Shown here: in pieces, positions 9,100-56,389 of the stretch | How positions within the stretch are numbered: position 1 is the first letter of the stretch | How the letters are laid out: every line of letters starts with the position of its first letter | Source of the DNA: Chloroflexota bacterium | Lineage (GTDB): Bacteria; Chloroflexota; Dehalococcoidia; Lucifugimonadales; Australimonadaceae | Assembly: GCA_009838965.1 (NCBI GenBank) | Contig: VXQP01000078.1 | Location: 29,957 to 93,956, forward strand | Direction: 5' to 3' | DNA: 64,000 bases | Translations under genes and position numbers: made by a program | The notes under the pieces: model-generated | Told to the model about the DNA's origin: nothing | The model's input: the letters and a program-made list of their open reading frames with translations, nothing else | Databases searched by the model: none

Positions 9100-9837
9100 C
9101 TAGGACGACGACAGCAGGAGGCGGGTGTATTCGTCGCCGGGGGACTGGATGAGCTCCTGGTACGTCCCGGTGCGGAGGATGCTGCCGTCCCGGATGATGG
9201 CGATGCGGTCCGCCATGGCGCGCGCGTCGGTGACATTGTGCGTCACGTACAGCGTCGTTGCGCCGAACTCGTCGTGGACGCGCCGGATCTCCGTGCGCAT
9301 CTTGGGCCTGCTGATGGGGTCGAGATTGCTCAGCGGCTCGTCCATCAGGAACGACGTGGCCTCTGTGACCATCGCCCGGGCGAGGGCAACGCGCTGGCGC
9401 TCGCCGCCCGACAGTTCGTCGGGTTTGCGCGGGAAGAGGTACTCCCTGAGCCCGACACGGCGCGCCACGTTGTTCACGCGCGAACGGATCTGCTCATCGC
9501 CCCAGCGGCGGGCCTTCAGCGGCAGGCTGAGGTTGGAGTAGCCGCGCTCCTCCATGACCCGCAGGTGCGGCCAGAGGGCGAGGCTCTGGAAGATGAGCTG
9601 CACCGGCCTGCGCCCGACCGGGACGTCGTTCATGTACTCGCCGCCGATGTAGATGCCGCCCTGCTCAGGCCGCTCGAGGCCGGCGATGAGGCGCAGCAGC
9701 GTGGTCTTGCCCGACCCCGACTCGCCCATGATCGCGACGAACTCACCCGCGCCGACCTCGAGGTCCGCGATGTCGACCGCGGGAGCCTCGGTCTTGGGGT
9801 ACTGGAACTTGAGCCGCAGCACTCGTATGCCACTCAT
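9100..9837 (-). CDS. ABC transporter ATP-binding protein (no permease adjacent)
   Basis: Walker A GESGSGKTT, signature LSGGERQRVALARA, Walker B SFLMDEPLSNLD. Confidence 0.9.
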   Translation of the reverse strand: MSGIRVLRLKFQYPKTEAPAVDIADLEVGAGEFVAIMGESGSGKTTLLRLIAGLERPEQGGIYIGGEYMNDVPVGRRPVQLIFQSLALWPHLRVMEERGYSNLSLPLKARRWGDEQIRSRVNNVARRVGLREYLFPRKPDELSGGERQRVALARAMVTEATSFLMDEPLSNLDPISRPKMRTEIRRVHDEFGATTLYVTHNVTDARAMADRIAIIRDGSILRTGTYQELIQSPGDEYTRLLLSSS

Positions 9838-9931
9838 GACTTCCTACCTGCCGGAAGTATAGGGCAAAGACTGCGATGTTATCTGCCTCCAACCACGTCA
9901 TGGGCAACTATTCACCCTCCAGGGCATCATC

Positions 9932-9937
9932 TATAGT
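9932..9937 (+). promoter_or_regulatory. Candidate leaderless -10 box TATAGT
   Basis: TATAGT ends 7 nt before ATG at 9945. Confidence 0.4.
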
Positions 9938-9944
9938 AGGGTGC

Positions 9945-10757
9945 ATGCAGATCTGTCCAGCGTTTGTGGATGAGACTGGTATCCTTACCGGGTCAGTCAA
10001 GAAGCAACCGGTCTATGGCATTGGCTTGCTTGTCGTTCCTGACACAGGGGAAATTACGGACAGATTTTATCGATTGCACTTCAATTTCTTTGCCGAGAGG
10101 GCTGCCGAAAGAAAAAGGGTCCGCAAAGCCATTCAGACGAGAGAGACCCTGCCGACTCTGCAGGAGATTGACCATCTGATGTCTTCAACACGCCACCATG
10201 AGTACAAGTTCGCTGATGCCAATCGCTTCAACATGCAGCAGTACATTGACCTTCTCAACGTGTATTTCTCCTGTCCTGGCTTGGAATTCCACGCACTCCT
10301 AATGGACCGAACGGATTCTGAAGCAGGTCTGCATAGGTGGAACAATGACGAATGGGAGGCATATACACATTTCGCACATGAGCTATTGGCAAACACGCTT
10401 ACTAGAGACGTATTTGCAATCGTGGATCTCCAAGGCAAGCCACGTCGGTCAAAGGTCCATTTGGAAGATGTTCTATGCTCCATAGACGCAGTGAAGGGGT
10501 GCCTCAGGGCTACTTCTGATATGTCAATATATCTGCAGCTCGTTGACGTGCTGCTTGGGTGCGTACAATTTGATTATAAGGACCAGATGAGCTACTACAG
10601 TCCTGGAACCAGGAGGTCCAATGAGAAGCGGCTCATGGTTAACTTCATCAAGAGTCAACTAGGTCTACAGCAACAAGATCCTTTTCTGCAGGCAGACATG
10701 GCCTTCAGCAAATGGGGAGTAAATTCTCTCTTCACAATCCGACGAGGGGTGTGGTGA
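9945..10757 (+). CDS. DUF3800-like protein (predicted RNase H-like fold)
   Basis: N-terminal MQICPAFVDETGILTG, internal EYKFADAN, overall length and layout typical of DUF3800; markedly lower GC than flanks; start ATG at 9945. Confidence 0.65.
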   Translation: MQICPAFVDETGILTGSVKKQPVYGIGLLVVPDTGEITDRFYRLHFNFFAERAAERKRVRKAIQTRETLPTLQEIDHLMSSTRHHEYKFADANRFNMQQYIDLLNVYFSCPGLEFHALLMDRTDSEAGLHRWNNDEWEAYTHFAHELLANTLTRDVFAIVDLQGKPRRSKVHLEDVLCSIDAVKGCLRATSDMSIYLQLVDVLLGCVQFDYKDQMSYYSPGTRRSNEKRLMVNFIKSQLGLQQQDPFLQADMAFSKWGVNSLFTIRRGVW

Positions 10758-13519: not shown

Positions 13520-14788
13520 TCACGGCTCGAACCGATAGACGACGGGCAGTTCGCCGGGGTCGGTGACGGTTGCGTCGGTGTGGTGGTAGACGGCCTGGAC
13601 GCCAGAGCCGCAGTCGCCGAACTCGTCGCAGGCAAGCGCGCCGGTGAGGCCCGAGAAGTCTTCCGACGCTGCTCGCATCGCCCCTCTGAGCGCGCTGCGG
13701 TCCACGCGAAGCGTGCCCCGCTCGTCGATGCCGAGGAATCGGGTGAAGAAGTTGCCGTCGTCGCGGACGGCGGCCCTCTCGATGGCGGCGAGCAGGAGCG
13801 TCGTGGCGTCGTAGGCATGCATCCAGAAGAGGGCGCCCTGGGCCAACTCGGGGTAGGCGGCCGCGTACGCCGTGAGCGCCTCGTCTACGGTCCTGCCTGT
13901 CGCGGCGTTGAAGTTGCTCTTCTCGTTCGGCGGCGGCGCAGCGAAGTAGACGCCCTCACTCTCGGGCACGGCGAGGAAAGCGGAAGTGAGGGCGGCATCG
14001 GCCGTTATGTACGTGACGCCTTCCAGTCCGTCCGACTCCCGTGCCTGCCGGATGAAGTGGGCGGCCTCGTCGTCGAAGAGCGGAAAGAAGACGCTGTCCG
14101 GCGCCGCCCCTGCGACCCCAAGAAGGACGCCTGCCATGTCGGTCTGACCCTTCTCCACAGTGCCAGTGAACGGGACATCGCCGCCGCGCGCGGCGAACGC
14201 GGACCGGAACGCCCGTGCGAGGGCGCTCGTGTACGGGTCGCCGTCGTGCACTGCAGCCGTACGGCGCAGGCCGAGTTCACGGTAAGCGAAACCCGCGACC
14301 GCCTCGGCCTGGTAGAGGTCGTTGTTGACGACCCGGAAGAAGCCGGGGTGGTAATCGGCCCCGGGATTGCCCCGCAGGTCCGAGGTGAGGACGGGCGATG
14401 TGGCCGCCGGCGAGACCATGACGAGTCCCGCCGCGCTGAGCACCGGCATGGCGGTCACCGACGACGCCGAGCACGACGTGCCGACGACGCCGAGCACCTC
14501 CGGTTCGGCGGCGATGCGCTCCGCGCCCGCGCGTCCTCCGTGCGGGTCGCACATGCTATCGACAACCGGGCCGAGTTCGACCTCGTGGCCGTGAACGGCG
14601 CCGAAGTGGCCGACGGCCAGCTCGACGCCGGCGCGCAGCGACTCAGCGTCGAGCGAGATGAGGGTGCGGACCTGCACCGGGTCGTCCGGGCCGAGCACGA
14701 TGGTGTCGGGGTCGTCGCTGCCGCAGGCGGCGGCGGTGAGCACGAAGGCAACGAGCAATCCGACCGACACAGTCCTCAGCACGCGCAA
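13520..14788 (-). CDS. ABC transporter substrate-binding lipoprotein (LivJ-like periplasmic binding protein family)
   Basis: LLVAFVLTAAACGSDD lipobox, then LEAL-type PBP fold with GVVGTSCSASSVTAMPVLSAAGLVMVSPAATSP. Confidence 0.85.
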   Translation of the reverse strand: MRVLRTVSVGLLVAFVLTAAACGSDDPDTIVLGPDDPVQVRTLISLDAESLRAGVELAVGHFGAVHGHEVELGPVVDSMCDPHGGRAGAERIAAEPEVLGVVGTSCSASSVTAMPVLSAAGLVMVSPAATSPVLTSDLRGNPGADYHPGFFRVVNNDLYQAEAVAGFAYRELGLRRTAAVHDGDPYTSALARAFRSAFAARGGDVPFTGTVEKGQTDMAGVLLGVAGAAPDSVFFPLFDDEAAHFIRQARESDGLEGVTYITADAALTSAFLAVPESEGVYFAAPPPNEKSNFNAATGRTVDEALTAYAAAYPELAQGALFWMHAYDATTLLLAAIERAAVRDDGNFFTRFLGIDERGTLRVDRSALRGAMRAASEDFSGLTGALACDEFGDCGSGVQAVYHHTDATVTDPGELPVVYRFEP

Positions 14789-14794
14789 GGCCTC

Positions 14795-16495
14795 CTACCA
14801 GACGCTGCCCTGAAGGCCGGGGCTGGTGATGGCGCCCTCGCTGGCGGAGGCGACGCTGCGCGCGTACTTGGCGAAGACGCCGGTGGTGTAGCGCGGCGGC
14901 GGAGCGCTCCAGCCCTCGCGGCGTCGCGCCATCTCCTCGTCCGGCACCTCGGTCTCCAGCACGCGGCGCTCCACGTCCAGCACGATCGTGTCGCCGTCCC
15001 GCAGGAAGGCGAGCGGGCCGCCGTTCGCGGCCTCCGGCGTGATGTGGCCGACCATGAAGCCGTGCGTCGCGCCGGAGAAGCGTCCGTCCGTGATGAGCGC
15101 GACGGTGTCGCCGAGGCCCGCGCCCTGGATGGCCGCGGTGACGGCCAGCATCTCCCGCATGCCCGGCCCGCCGACCGGCCCCTCGTAGCGGATGACGACC
15201 ACGTCGTTGTCCTGCACCTTGCCGGCGCGGACGGCGGCGAAGCAGTCCTCCTCGCGGTCGAAGACGCGGGCGGGGCCGCGGTGCAGCCTGCGGCCGTGCC
15301 CCGCGAGCTTGACGACGCAGCCCTCAGGCGCCAGGTTCCCGCGCAGGATGGCGATGCCGCCGTTCGGGTTGATGGGGTCGCTGGCGGAGACGACGACCTG
15401 CTGGCCGGGCTCGGCGACCGCCGCGGCGCCGATCTGGCCGAAGCTCTGGCCGCTCACGTTGGCCGCGCCCGCGTGCGCCAACTCCGCGCCGACGAGCTCC
15501 TTGGAAACGAGGCCGTAGCCGCCCGCCGCGTACAGGTCCACCGCGTTATACGCGCCGCCGGGCTTCATGCTCGCGACGATGGGCGTTCGCCACGCGATCT
15601 CGTCGAAGTCGTCGATGGAGAGCTCGACTCCCGCCTCGCGCGCTATCGCGAGCAGGTGGAGCACCGCGTTCGTCGAGCCCGCGGTCGCCGCGACTCCGGC
15701 GATGGCGTTCTCAAACGCCTCGCGCGTCATGATGTCGCGGGGCGTCGTGCCGCTGCGGAGCAGTTCCATGGCGAGCCTACCCGCGTTCCGCGCGGCCTCC
15801 GCCTTCGCGTCGAAGACGGCGGGGACGGCGTTCGCGCCCGCGGGACTGATGCCGAGGAACTCCAGCGCCATCGCCATGGTGTTCGCCGTGAACTGGCCGC
15901 CGCACGCACCCGCGCCGGGGCAGGCGTGGTCCTCGACCGCCTTCAGCCGCGCGTCGTCGATGCGTCCCGCGCCGTGGGCGCCGACGGCCTCGAAGACGTC
16001 CAGGATGGTGATGTCCTTCCCATCCAGCTTGCCGGGCAGGATGGAGCCGTTGTAGAAGGCGAGGCCGGGCAGGTTGAGGCGCGCGAGCGCCATTCCGCCC
16101 GCCGGGAGCGTCTTGTCGCAGCCGACGAGGACGACGATGCCGTCGAACGAGTGGCCGCGCGCGACCGTCTCGATGGAGTCGGCGATGACCTCGCGGCTGA
16201 CGAGCGAGCCGCGCATGCCCTCGGTGCCCATCGCGACGCCGTCGGAGACGGAGATGGTGTTGAACTCCATGGGCGTGCCGCCGGCCTCCCTGATCCCCTC
16301 CTTCACGTACTGCGCCAGCTCGCGCTGGTTGTAGTTGCAGGGCATCGTCTCGATCCAGGTGGTGGCGACGCCGATGAGGGGCTTGGCGAGGTCGTCGTCG
16401 GTGAAGCCGATGGCCTTGAGCATCGCGCGCGCCGGAGCGCGGGACGGGCCGTCGGTCATCTCTGCTGAGTGCTTCTTGAGCGGGTTGGTTGCCAT
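14795..16495 (-). CDS. ilvD: Dihydroxy-acid dehydratase
   Basis: Full-length IlvD motifs: [89 protein letters not shown]. Confidence 0.97.
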
Positions 16496-51985: not shown

Positions 51986-52705
51986 TTAGCGGCGGAAGTT
52001 AATCCGCCGGAACAGCTCCGCGTAGGTGAGATCGTAGCCGTGCTCAGCCGCGCGTTCGGCGGCCGCCTCGGCGCGGCGCTTCACGAACCCCTCGATGCGC
52101 ACCGTGTCCGAGGAGAGCTGGCTCTCGTGCGCGGCAAGCGCCTGCATCTTGGTCTCGATGACGTCCGCGATGTCGACGACCACGTCCGGTCTCTCTGAAC
52201 CCCAGAGCAGGACGGAGCCTACCTTGTGCGGTTCCAAGCCCCATACGAGGTGCTCCGGGTAGTGCAGCCGGTCGCGAGCGTAGGGGAAGCAGGCATCCAT
52301 CGCCACCCGGCCTGAGATGCGGTGGTCGCGATGGCCGTGCCCTTCATTCCGGACGGGGTCCGTCGCCAGCACCACGTCGGGCTTCCACCGCCGGATCTGC
52401 TCCACGAGCCGTCCACGGAACTCCCGCGTGTCCTCCAACTCGCCGTCGCCGTAGCGGAGGAAGACCACTTCTTCCGCGCCCGCCGTCGCTGCCGCCTTGA
52501 GCTGCTCCTCCTCGCGTATCGCAGCGAGGCGCTCGCTCGTCATCTCCGGGTCGGACGTGCCCTTGTCGCCGTTGGTACAGATGACGTAGAGGATGCGGCT
52601 GCCATCACGCGACCATTTGGCAACGCTGCCTCCCGGGCCGGACTCGCCATCGTCGGGGTGTGGTATCACGAGCATGGCCCGTTCGGGGGTGTCGATCGTC
52701 TCCAT
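51986..52705 (-). CDS. PIG-L family deacetylase (MshB/BshB-like fold)
   Basis: AMLVIPHPDDGESGPGGSVAKW...DPVRNEGHGHRDHRISGRVAMDA zinc motifs. Confidence 0.9.
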   Translation of the reverse strand: METIDTPERAMLVIPHPDDGESGPGGSVAKWSRDGSRILYVICTNGDKGTSDPEMTSERLAAIREEEQLKAAATAGAEEVVFLRYGDGELEDTREFRGRLVEQIRRWKPDVVLATDPVRNEGHGHRDHRISGRVAMDACFPYARDRLHYPEHLVWGLEPHKVGSVLLWGSERPDVVVDIADVIETKMQALAAHESQLSSDTVRIEGFVKRRAEAAAERAAEHGYDLTYAELFRRINFRR

Positions 52706-52761
52706 GCGTCTCCGTGGGGTCGATTGGGGTCTGGCAAGATGATACGCTTTCCGCCGCGCTC

Positions 52762-53661
52762 ATGCCGAACCCTCCGACCATACGCTCCTACACGCCCGAC
52801 GATCTGGAGGCGCTCGGCGCGCTCCGGCTCGGGCACGCGCCTTCGCCCACCGAAGGGGCAGCACTCGCACGCTGGCTGGCACAGCCCAACATCGACGCCA
52901 AGCGCGACTGCATGCTCGCATTCAACGACGACGGCGCGCCAGCAGGCTTCGCCATCCTCATCCGCGAGCCCGCCATCAGGAGGGGCGTGGTGGAGGTGAA
53001 CGGCAGCAACCAGCACCGAGGAGGCGGTGCGGGTGACGCGCTGCTGCGGGAGGTGTACGAGCGCGGACGCGCAGCGGGGCTGGACGTGGTGCAGGTGGAT
53101 GTGCCGGAGTCCGACGAAGCACGCCGGAAGGCGTTCGCGGAACGAGGCTGGGCGCACATCCGCACGCACCTCCACCTGCGCAGAGAGGGAACGGAACGGA
53201 CGAACGTCCCCGCGCCGAACGGCATGACGCTCCGCCTCGCCGAACCCGTCGACGCACCGGCAGTCACTGACGTGCAGAACACCGCGTTCACCGGCAGCTG
53301 GGGCTACGCGCCCAATACGCCAGCCGAGATCGCGTACCGCATCTTCGAGCTGCCGGACCTGCGCCCCGATCCCGTCGTGCTGTTGGAGGAAGACGGCGCG
53401 CTCGTCGGCTACTGCTGGTGCCACCGCGAGGCGGAGGACGCGCCGGGCATCGTCGGGATGGTCGGCGTGCTGCCCGGACGGCAGGGGAAGGGGCTGGGAC
53501 GTGCGGTGACTGGCGCAGGGATGGACGCGCTGCTGGAACTCGGTTCCCCAAGCCTCGAGATCACGGTAGACAGCGAGAACCCGCCCGCCATCCGTGTCTA
53601 CGAGAGCCTCGGCTTCGTGCTGGACTGGCGGTCGTTCTGGTACGAGTTGCGGCTGACCTGA
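52762..53661 (+). CDS. Tandem GNAT acetyltransferase (MshD-like two-domain architecture)
   Basis: Two GNAT-like halves; C-terminal VGMVGVLPGRQGKGLGRAVTGAGMDALLELGSPSLEITVDSENPPAIRVYESLGFVLDWRSFWYEL. Confidence 0.85.
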   Translation: MPNPPTIRSYTPDDLEALGALRLGHAPSPTEGAALARWLAQPNIDAKRDCMLAFNDDGAPAGFAILIREPAIRRGVVEVNGSNQHRGGGAGDALLREVYERGRAAGLDVVQVDVPESDEARRKAFAERGWAHIRTHLHLRREGTERTNVPAPNGMTLRLAEPVDAPAVTDVQNTAFTGSWGYAPNTPAEIAYRIFELPDLRPDPVVLLEEDGALVGYCWCHREAEDAPGIVGMVGVLPGRQGKGLGRAVTGAGMDALLELGSPSLEITVDSENPPAIRVYESLGFVLDWRSFWYELRLT

Positions 53662-53669
53662 GCCGCCCT

Positions 53670-54845
53670 TCACCCATTAAGGCGCGCCGACACCACCTGC
53701 TCGTAGACCTCCGCGAGGCGGGCGGCGGACGCGTCCCAGGTGAAGCGACGCGCCTGCGCTGCGCCCGCCTCGCCCATGCGCTGCGCAAGCAGAGGGTCGC
53801 CCAGCATGGCGTCGAACGCTTCCGCCAGCGCTGCGGCGTCTCCCGGCTTGCAGAGCAATCCGCTCTCGCCATGACGCACGAGCTCCCGCAAGCCCCCTGT
53901 ATCGGACGCCGCCACCGGAATACCGCACGCCATCGCCTCGAGCGCCACGAGCCCGAACGTCTCGTGTAGCGACGGCACGGCGCACACATCGGCGGCGGCG
54001 TAGTACGAAGGCAACTCACGCTGCGGGACGGCCGCACGCCAGTCCAGCAGACCACTCACCTCGCTCGCTCGCGCCGTCTCCCGCAGCCACTCCGTCCCCG
54101 GTTCTCCTTCCCTGCCGCCGACGACGAGCAACCGGACGTCTTGCGACGTATCGAGGAGAGCGATTGCCCGCACGAGCACGTCGGTGCCCTTGAACGGCTC
54201 GATGCGCCCCACGGAGAGCACGACGCGCTCGTCGCCTCCAATGCCGAGCGCGGCCCGCGCCTCTGCGCGCGGCTGCGGCCCGAAGAGAGTCGTGTCCACG
54301 CCCATCGGCACGGCATGCGTCCTGTCAGGCGCAAGCCCGAACAGATCACAGAGCGAGGCGGACTCCGCCTCCGTGAAGGTGACGACGGCGTCGGAGCGCC
54401 GTATCGCGTCGGCCTCCGCGTACTTGCGCGGCTCCGGCTCGGGAGCGCCGCCGGCGCGCTCCTTGATGACAGCGATGGTGTGTCCGGTGAAGACGTGCGG
54501 CACGCCGAGGCGCTCCGCGAGCCGCAGACCCGGCTCGGCTGACGTCCAGTAGTGACTGTGGACGAGGGCGTAGTCCACGCCGGTTTCGTCGACGGCAGCG
54601 AGCAGGTCGTCCGCGAAGCCCGGCGCGTCTTCGGCGGCGACATGGGTTACGCGCGGAGGTTCCTGCTCGAAGGAGCCCGGGCATGGCCCGTCGGAAGCGG
54701 CGTAGACGTCCATCCACACGCCCGCGTCCGTCAGCGCCTGCATCATGCTGCGCAGGAAGACGCTCATCCCGCCTGCCGAACCCGCGCCGGGGGCAGCGAA
54801 GGGAGAGCCGTGGGCGGAAACGCAGGCGACGCGCAACGCGCTCAT
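53670..54845 (-). CDS. GT4 glycosyltransferase, MshA/sucrose-phosphate-synthase-like
   Basis: SAHGSPFAAPGAGSAGGMSVFLRSM...LVHSHYWTSAEPGLRLAERLGVPHVFTGHTIAVIKE...LSVGRIEPFKGTDVLVRA...PSLHETFGLVALEAMACGIPVAASDTGGLRELV. Confidence 0.9.
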   Translation of the reverse strand: MSALRVACVSAHGSPFAAPGAGSAGGMSVFLRSMMQALTDAGVWMDVYAASDGPCPGSFEQEPPRVTHVAAEDAPGFADDLLAAVDETGVDYALVHSHYWTSAEPGLRLAERLGVPHVFTGHTIAVIKERAGGAPEPEPRKYAEADAIRRSDAVVTFTEAESASLCDLFGLAPDRTHAVPMGVDTTLFGPQPRAEARAALGIGGDERVVLSVGRIEPFKGTDVLVRAIALLDTSQDVRLLVVGGREGEPGTEWLRETARASEVSGLLDWRAAVPQRELPSYYAAADVCAVPSLHETFGLVALEAMACGIPVAASDTGGLRELVRHGESGLLCKPGDAAALAEAFDAMLGDPLLAQRMGEAGAAQARRFTWDASAARLAEVYEQVVSARLNG

Positions 54846-54854
54846 CTCCGGCGC

Positions 54855-55823
54855 TTAGCGCGTCACGACGATGCGATGGATGCGCCCGTCTACCGCACCG
54901 AGGTGGTACTTGTAGTGCTCCGCGCCTCTGAGCAGATCGAAGTACGTGAGCCCGCTCTCTATCGCATCCTTGATGCAGAGCGCCTTGAGCATGAGCCCCG
55001 TGGCGAGATGGTCATAGCCGTGGCGGTAGCCGCTGTTGTAGAGGAGCCGCCTGCCTGCATAGTCGAACGAGAGAACGGCGGCTGCGGCGGGGTCATCGCC
55101 TACCTCCAGCAGGAAGAGGCGCAGATACCCTGCCTCGAACATGCGGTCCGTCATGCGCTGGAAGAACGCCTCGCGCGCGGGGTTGAGGAACTCACGCTTC
55201 TCCGCCCGGCTCTCCGCCATCACCTCCTGGAAGAGCGCCAGATCGCGTTCGAGCGTCTCAGCGTCAGCGAGCCGCACACGCACCTGACCAGCGGACTCCA
55301 GCCGTCGCAGCTTGCGCCGCAGTTCGTGCCGGTCCTTCTTCCGCAAGCCCGCGAGGTAGGCGTCCCACGACTCCGGCAGTGTCACGCCGGGCACCACGTC
55401 CTCCTCCTCGATCACAATGGCGTAGCCGCGCTCGCGGGCCGCCTGCGGGAGAAGGGTCAACGTCGGTGACCACTCCGGCACGGAGGAAAGCTCCATCGTG
55501 CGCCACGGTTCACTCTCCAGGCAATCGAACAGTTCGAAGTAGAACGCGGGGTCCGGAGCGATGAAATCGTGGTAATCGAAGAGGTCGGTGCCGCCAACGA
55601 AGGTGATGCGCCCGCTGCTCAACTGCAGCGGCGCGAGTCCAAGGGGAGCGTCGGGCGGGCCAACGGTGATGAGCCGCAACTCCTCATCGCGGCCGAATTC
55701 GTCCCACCACGCCTCCTGCCACTCCGGCGTCATGAAGATAGTGCTCCAAGGCAGACGGCCCAGCAGTTCCCGCCAGACCGCACGGACGGGCGCGAACGAC
55801 CTCGTTGCCTCGGCGCAGGTCAA
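54855..55823 (-). CDS. FemAB/BioF2-like (CelD-type) GNAT-fold acyltransferase
   Basis: [18 protein letters not shown]...[17 protein letters not shown]...[68 protein letters not shown]; probable TTG start overlapping folE stop. Confidence 0.85.
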
Positions 55824-56389
55824 TGCAGTCCCTCCTGCAGCAGGCTCAACGCCTCGGCCCGCGTCGCCTGGTCCGATACGAAGACGCCGCGCAGCGCGGA
55901 CGTGACGATGGACGTGCCCGGCTTGCGGACGCCGCGCATGGACATGCACAGGTGCTCGGCGCGCATCACCACCGCGACGCCTGAGGGCTCGACCGTCTCC
56001 ATGATGGCGTCCGCTATCTGGGACGTGAGACGCTCCTGCACCTGCGGGCGCTTCGCGAAGATGTCCACGGCGCGCGCGAGCTTGCTGATCCCAACGATCT
56101 TCCCATGCGGGATGTAGGCGACGTGCGCCGTACCGAAGAACGGGAGGAGGTGATGTTCGCAGAGCGAGTAGAACGGCATGTCGCGCATCAGCACCATCTC
56201 CTGGTGCGACTCGTCGAACTGCACGGAGAGCACTTCCCTCGCGTCCTGATCGATGCCCTCCGATATCTCCTCGTACATCCGTGCGACGCGCTCCGGAGTG
56301 TCACGCAGCCCTTCGCGTTGCGTATCCTCGCCTATGGCTAGCAGCAGTTCGCGGATGGCATGCTCCACTCTGGCCGAGTCTATCGTCAA
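55820..56389 (-). CDS. folE: GTP cyclohydrolase I
   Basis: [28 protein letters not shown]...[50 protein letters not shown]. Confidence 0.97.

Follow-up and report, generated by a model that had tools for sequence, protein, structure and literature searches.

A conserved FemAB-GT4-PIG-L gene set in SAR202-type and Dehalococcoidaceae-type Chloroflexota as a candidate variant of the mycothiol/bacillithiol-type pathways

Mycothiol is synthesized in Actinobacteria by MshA, MshB, MshC and MshD, and bacillithiol by BshA, BshB and BshC. A survey of complete genomes found the mycothiol genes in Actinobacteria only (PMC6282198). Among the enzymes of the FemAB type, FemX transfers alanine from tRNA, while its relative Orf11 is Gly-tRNA-dependent and acts on an amino sugar (reviewed in PMC12945691). 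Here we analyzed a stretch of 64,000 nucleotides (hereafter the window; contig VXQP01000078.1, positions 29,957 to 93,956) from a Chloroflexota genome of 3.0 Mb and 96.6% completeness (GCA_009838965.1), in which the genes of a FemAB-like protein, a GT4 glycosyltransferase and a PIG-L family deacetylase lie close together. The source is a deep-ocean bacterium, and named relatives place its genome within the SAR202/Dehalococcoidia portion of the phylum. We propose, with a probability of about 0.58, that the three genes encode a variant mycothiol/bacillithiol-type glucosaminyl pathway, in which a FemAB-fold aminoacyltransferase would act at the ligase step. A literature search retrieved no paper on this FemAB-GT4-PIG-L cluster.

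The FemAB and GT4 genes were adjacent and co-oriented in 38/38 testable loci from across the order (39 loci were fetched and one, in which the contig was broken at GT4, was excluded), so the arrangement is not due to chance. PIG-L and a tandem GNAT gene were nearby in about half of the 39 loci. FemAB was used to draw 80 named contigs; of these, 78 had GT4, 69 ThrC, 62 FolE, 58 PIG-L and 42 GNAT, counts that are lower bounds as some contigs are short. In complete Dehalococcoidaceae-type genomes (1.4-2.1 Mb) the set was reduced to a tight FemAB-GT4-PIG-L operon; FemAB, GT4 and PIG-L therefore form the core, which is conserved across the SAR202-containing order. In the two of these genomes that were read in detail, the operon adjoined tuf and ribosomal protein genes and contained neither FolE nor GNAT. 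The five Dehalococcoidaceae-type genomes tested for reductive dehalogenases had 19-30 matches each. The original prediction for this DNA had described a neighborhood of four genes; co-occurrence in relatives was confirmed for FemAB, GT4 and PIG-L, and the GNAT gene is an optional partner.

Two explanations had been offered for the lack of MshC at the locus: that the FemAB-like enzyme replaces it, or that MshC is encoded elsewhere. Profile searches of 59 relatives and of 50 chosen genomes returned no protein above the MshC cut-off. The best MshC-profile match of each relative resembled an ordinary cysteinyl-tRNA synthetase (CysRS), and some genomes had a second, longer CysRS-domain protein. The source genome contained a single MshC-profile match, which ran into a contig end. 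FemAB carriers that were placed in a tree had an ordinary CysRS, with the exception of one family (f48), and together these results speak against an MshC encoded elsewhere. BshC was found in 0/59 relatives, while three expected control genomes matched. The pathway would work in the manner of mycothiol or bacillithiol biosynthesis, but since neither MshC nor BshC turned up in these searches, we do not assign it to either. Among the CysRS-domain proteins, long frames (~730-955 aa) were the second matches in many relatives, and in one genome (G029, L190:2266-4593) a single protein of 776 aa combined the CysRS catalytic domain (PF01406) with a family 2 glycosyltransferase (PF00535) as a fusion.

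Many other GT4-bearing Chloroflexota were found to have a second, short CysRS paralog (~395-450 aa) with the MshC-like motif CG(I/V)TPYD. In the tree, CysRS formed a clade with a support of 100/99, and MshC (8hfm), on a long branch, and the 12 short paralogs were placed outside of it. Paralogs were classified as MshC-like at E <= 1e-160 against the paralog alignment, a threshold that was set after viewing the distribution. With this threshold, 5 of the 279 GT4-positive genomes had both genes, 110 had FemAB alone, 93 had the MshC-like gene alone, and the remaining 71 had neither; at the genome level, without correction for relatedness, the Fisher test gave p = 6e-22. When 14 further short-frame matches, picked by eye, were counted as MshC-like, the numbers changed to 5/110/107/57. 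The genomes with both genes were three of family f48, G146 and G147. On the GT4 tree (66 rows) the FemAB and MshC-like labels required 8 changes, of which at least 6 were forced by well supported branches, and one MshC-type row was sister to three FemAB rows (100/99). Within the limits of a gene tree, where horizontal transfer of GT4 is not separable from replacement in place, the label swaps appear as expected of repeated non-orthologous replacement of one step. This mutual exclusion around the same GT4, together with the FemX-like fold described below, lends support to a replacement of MshC by FemAB.

The exclusion might also reflect clade membership without shared function, with FemAB-GT4-PIG-L being an unrelated conserved operon, which we consider very improbable. 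The labels were strongly clustered on the GT4 tree, the genome-level test takes no account of relatedness, and outside the class FemAB was away from GT4 in 33/53 genomes having both. FemAB homologs at a distance from GT4 were surrounded by unrelated genes. This reading is opposed by the forced label changes, by the persistence of FemAB-GT4 adjacency in distant families and by the exclusion at the family level (both/FemAB/MshC-like/neither = 3/34/15/14, p = 1.6e-4). The same GT4 was also common among other lineages of Chloroflexota, but it was isolated in the 20 loci read, and none of the loci read had PIG-L beside an isolated GT4 gene or an MshC-like gene.

The structure of the FemAB-like protein was predicted by AlphaFold2 from 57 aligned sequences with a mean confidence (pLDDT) of 95.9. 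When this model was searched with Foldseek, ranks 1-10 were occupied by FemX (6snr, 1ne9, 7z5y) and by the aminoacyl-tRNA-dependent ligases Sbb17/Sba18, two entries of which contain streptothrisamine, and MprF-type and acetyl-CoA GNAT enzymes ranked below these. According to the model, the protein has a FemX-type double GNAT fold. In 20 loci across the phylum the residues K305 (numbering of the FemAB-like protein in the window; the Lys of GxExYK), YN 262-263 and G309 were invariant, as was a basic helix with R165, E167, R170, K171 and R173. K305 may correspond to FemX Lys305. A plasmid search with FemAB resulted in matches of only ~28-30%, in Alphaproteobacteria. The Pfam model matched by the protein (PF13480) is named Acetyltransf_6, acetyl-CoA GNAT enzymes are also found among the structural matches, and the GT4 and GNAT genes of many loci are separated by one for a DUF502 membrane protein, all of which would fit an acyl-CoA-type N-acyltransferase whose product is an N-acylated glucosaminyl lipid or a glycoside of the envelope, with a likeness to thiol biosynthesis in the first two steps only. 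We regard this as improbable, as aminoacyl-tRNA enzymes lead the list of fold matches, a Lys and a basic helix similar in kind to those of FemX are invariant, and the GT4 is nearest to soluble MshA and not to the lipid-linked PimA/PimB in the match to solved structures.

For the GT4 of the window, MshA (TIGR03449) was the best of all NCBIfam models with 292 bits against a cut-off of 462.5, followed by weaker matches to BshA (109 bits) and sucrose-phosphate synthase (87 bits); the GT4s of relatives scored 326-400 bits against the MshA model. The best sequence match in the PDB was Corynebacterium glutamicum MshA (3c48/3c4q, 215.8 bits), ahead of 6kih (187 bits; deposited as Tll1590), which we take to be a sucrose-phosphate synthase. 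Both searches agree with the MshA-like call of the original prediction, and an identity as sucrose-phosphate synthase was rejected, its match being the weaker one in profiles and PDB alike. A role in pterin glycosylation, considered on account of the adjacent FolE, was also rejected; the operons of the Dehalococcoidaceae-type genomes lack FolE, and the match of the GT4 to tetrahydrobiopterin glucosyltransferase was weak. The residues Y110, T134, R154, N25 and K78 of C. glutamicum MshA were reportedly given roles in inositol phosphate binding by Vetting et al. in 2008. In an alignment of 79 Chloroflexota GT4s, the equivalents of Y110, T134 and R154 were invariant (79/79) and those of N25 and K78 were kept in 70/79. 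The GT4 of the window and its genus retained the former three, had lost the loop with the K78 equivalent and had a serine in place of N25. Because of these two changes, the acceptor of the window GT4 may not be the same even as the one used by its relatives.

The nearest NCBIfam model of the PIG-L protein was BshB1, while MshB reached 47 bits against a cut-off of 224. Its nearest PDB sequences were diacetylchitobiose deacetylases. The metal motif was retained and the HPDD and HRDHR motifs were conserved. Profile searches placed the protein among BshB/Mca/MshB-type deacetylases, and not in an unrelated clade. The tandem GNAT protein had MshD (TIGR03448) as its best NCBIfam model, below the cut-off of 163 bits; its structural model resembled tandem GNATs generally, MshD (2c27) appearing at rank 8, and it is only loosely MshD-like. 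A DUF502 membrane protein (PF04367) was noted in ~50/80 named loci (e.g., L087:12229-13029); its position was between GT4 and GNAT in many SAR202-type loci, and none was listed there in the window.

The four open reading frames previously described as lying side by side were intact (Table 1), and Pfam and NCBIfam searches agreed with their family calls at the fold level. GT4 was indeed nearest to MshA, and the terms MshB-type and MshD-type are true at the fold level only. FolE, FemAB and GT4 follow each other closely on the minus strand, with an overlap of 4 bp between the FemAB start and the FolE stop and a gap of 9 bp between FemAB and GT4. These three genes stand behind ThrC and Hom. The GNAT gene lies between GT4 and PIG-L, on the strand opposite to both. 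FolE is probably not part of the pathway.

Table 1. Genes of the FemAB-GT4-PIG-L locus and its neighbors in the window.
Feature	Coordinates	Strand	Profile match
FemAB-like double-GNAT-fold protein, proposed aminoacyltransferase in place of MshC	54855..55823	-	PF13480 97.7 bits
GT4 glycosyltransferase, MshA-like	53670..54845	-	TIGR03449 292 bits
PIG-L family de-N-acetylase, BshB1-nearest	51986..52705	-	PF02585 103.5 bits; TIGR04001 97.7 bits
Tandem GNAT acetyltransferase, optional partner, loosely MshD-like	52762..53661	+	PF00583; TIGR03448 76 bits
FolE, GTP cyclohydrolase I, upstream neighbor in the same tight run	55820..56389	-	Pfam and NCBIfam matches

In mycothiol-dependent maleylpyruvate isomerase and in related proteins of the DinB type, PF11716 is the N-terminal domain; C. 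glutamicum is a mycothiol producer. Of 14 control genomes, 4 matched PF11716 at the default threshold, namely three that were also BshC-positive and C. glutamicum. Within the class, the domain was present in 22/38 FemAB-positive and 0/14 FemAB-negative genomes. Phylum-wide it followed GT4 (184/279 GT4-positive versus 30/121), and as a phylum-wide thiol marker it was set aside as not specific. Its distribution gives mild support to a thiol. A mycothiol maleylpyruvate isomerase is listed in a paper on SAR202 metagenome-assembled genomes (PMC6123686).

In the proposed pathway, GT4 would transfer N-acetylglucosamine to an anionic, probably phosphorylated, acceptor X, and PIG-L, judging by its family, would deacetylate the product to glucosaminyl-X (GlcN-X). 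From its fold, its context and the replacement pattern, the FemAB-fold enzyme would then aminoacylate the free amine of the sugar, most likely with cysteine from Cys-tRNA, and would be the counterpart of the MshC/BshC step elsewhere. Cysteine is suggested as the residue because FemAB alternates with an MshC-like cysteine ligase. Where it is present, the tandem GNAT might conceivably acylate the product in an MshD-like manner. The same enzymes could instead add an amino acid other than cysteine (e.g., glycine, alanine or serine from tRNA) to GlcN-X, resulting in a glycoconjugate or solute and no thiol. FemX and Orf11 do transfer alanine and glycine from tRNA (PMC12945691), no sequence feature indicates cysteine, and three small Dehalococcoidaceae-type genomes keep the operon without PF11716. 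We hold this to be unlikely, since the gene with which FemAB alternates around this GT4 is a paralog resembling a cysteine ligase and since PF11716 was similarly frequent in FemAB (64%) and MshC-type (53%) genomes.

Several observations weigh against a variant mycothiol/bacillithiol-type pathway. No protein of the window passed the curated NCBIfam cut-offs of MshA, MshB or MshD, and those of BshA (109 versus 274 bits) and BshB1 (97.7 versus 182.5 bits) were likewise unmet. The similarity of the FemAB-like protein to FemX lies in the fold alone, since a PDB profile search with the FemAB alignment as query gave no significant match to the family profile and returned chance matches alone, and the amino acid that it uses is not readable from its sequence. 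The frequencies of PF11716 fail to separate genomes with FemAB, with the MshC-like gene or with neither across the phylum, and the domain is missing from the three small genomes mentioned above. With 71 GT4-positive genomes having neither ligase and 5 having both, the step is not always filled by FemAB or an MshC-like enzyme. Some of the 71 may have MshC-like genes that escaped the search. The source genome and most others of its genus had inositol-phosphate synthase (Ino1), but it was present in no more than 15/59 relatives and 0/11 Dehalococcoidaceae-type genomes tested; because it is absent from 44/59 and 11/11 of these, inositol phosphate made by Ino1 cannot be the general acceptor.

Two groups of families showed further gene combinations. 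Families f81 and f68 had GT4 without FemAB or a strong MshC-like match, mostly together with PF11716, and may have a third ligase. Family f48 has both FemAB and an MshC-like gene, and in one of its genomes (G283, L183) GT4 (~9200-10382) and Ino1 (~13682-14905) were ~3.3 kb apart, with a sugar-epimerase-like gene between them.

No small redox thiol appears to have been described so far for the SAR202-type and Dehalococcoidaceae lineages. We tentatively suggest, at somewhat less than even odds, that both make an undescribed cysteinyl-glucosaminyl thiol with an acceptor that is often not inositol, using a Cys-tRNA-dependent FemAB-fold ligase that was swapped with MshC several times within Chloroflexota. 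If true, this would provide a candidate thiol pathway for an abundant dark-ocean lineage and for organohalide-respiring bacteria used in bioremediation, a new, tRNA-dependent kind of ligase chemistry in thiol biosynthesis, and a natural experiment, with two unrelated enzymes filling the same step of one pathway. The presence of the minimal three-gene form in complete Dehalococcoidaceae-type genomes makes the pathway open to direct tests.

In comparison with known systems, the locus resembles the mycothiol pathway in its MshA-like GT4 with most of the acceptor-site residues, its PIG-L protein and, in part of the loci, its tandem GNAT. It differs in having no MshC over the cut-off, a FemAB-fold protein beside GT4, a PIG-L nearer to BshB1 and, mostly, no Ino1. 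With the bacillithiol pathway it shares the BshB1-nearest PIG-L and the logic of N-acetylglucosamine transfer, deacetylation and amino acid ligation, whereas its GT4 is MshA-like and not BshA-like and BshC is absent from 59/59 relatives. With the FemABX family and with Orf11 (BD-12), Sbb17 and Sba18, the FemAB-like protein shares the double GNAT fold, and its invariant Lys close to the C-terminus and the basic helix of its second domain may be the counterparts of those in FemX. In contrast to these enzymes, it is encoded with GT4 and PIG-L rather than among cell-wall or antibiotic genes, and its use of tRNA is putative; Orf11 aminoacylates an amino sugar, as is proposed here. The MshC-like CysRS paralogs of other Chloroflexota, unlike FemAB, are class-I synthetase-type ligases and are nearly absent where FemAB is present, and they accompany the same MshA-like GT4 lineage as FemAB does.

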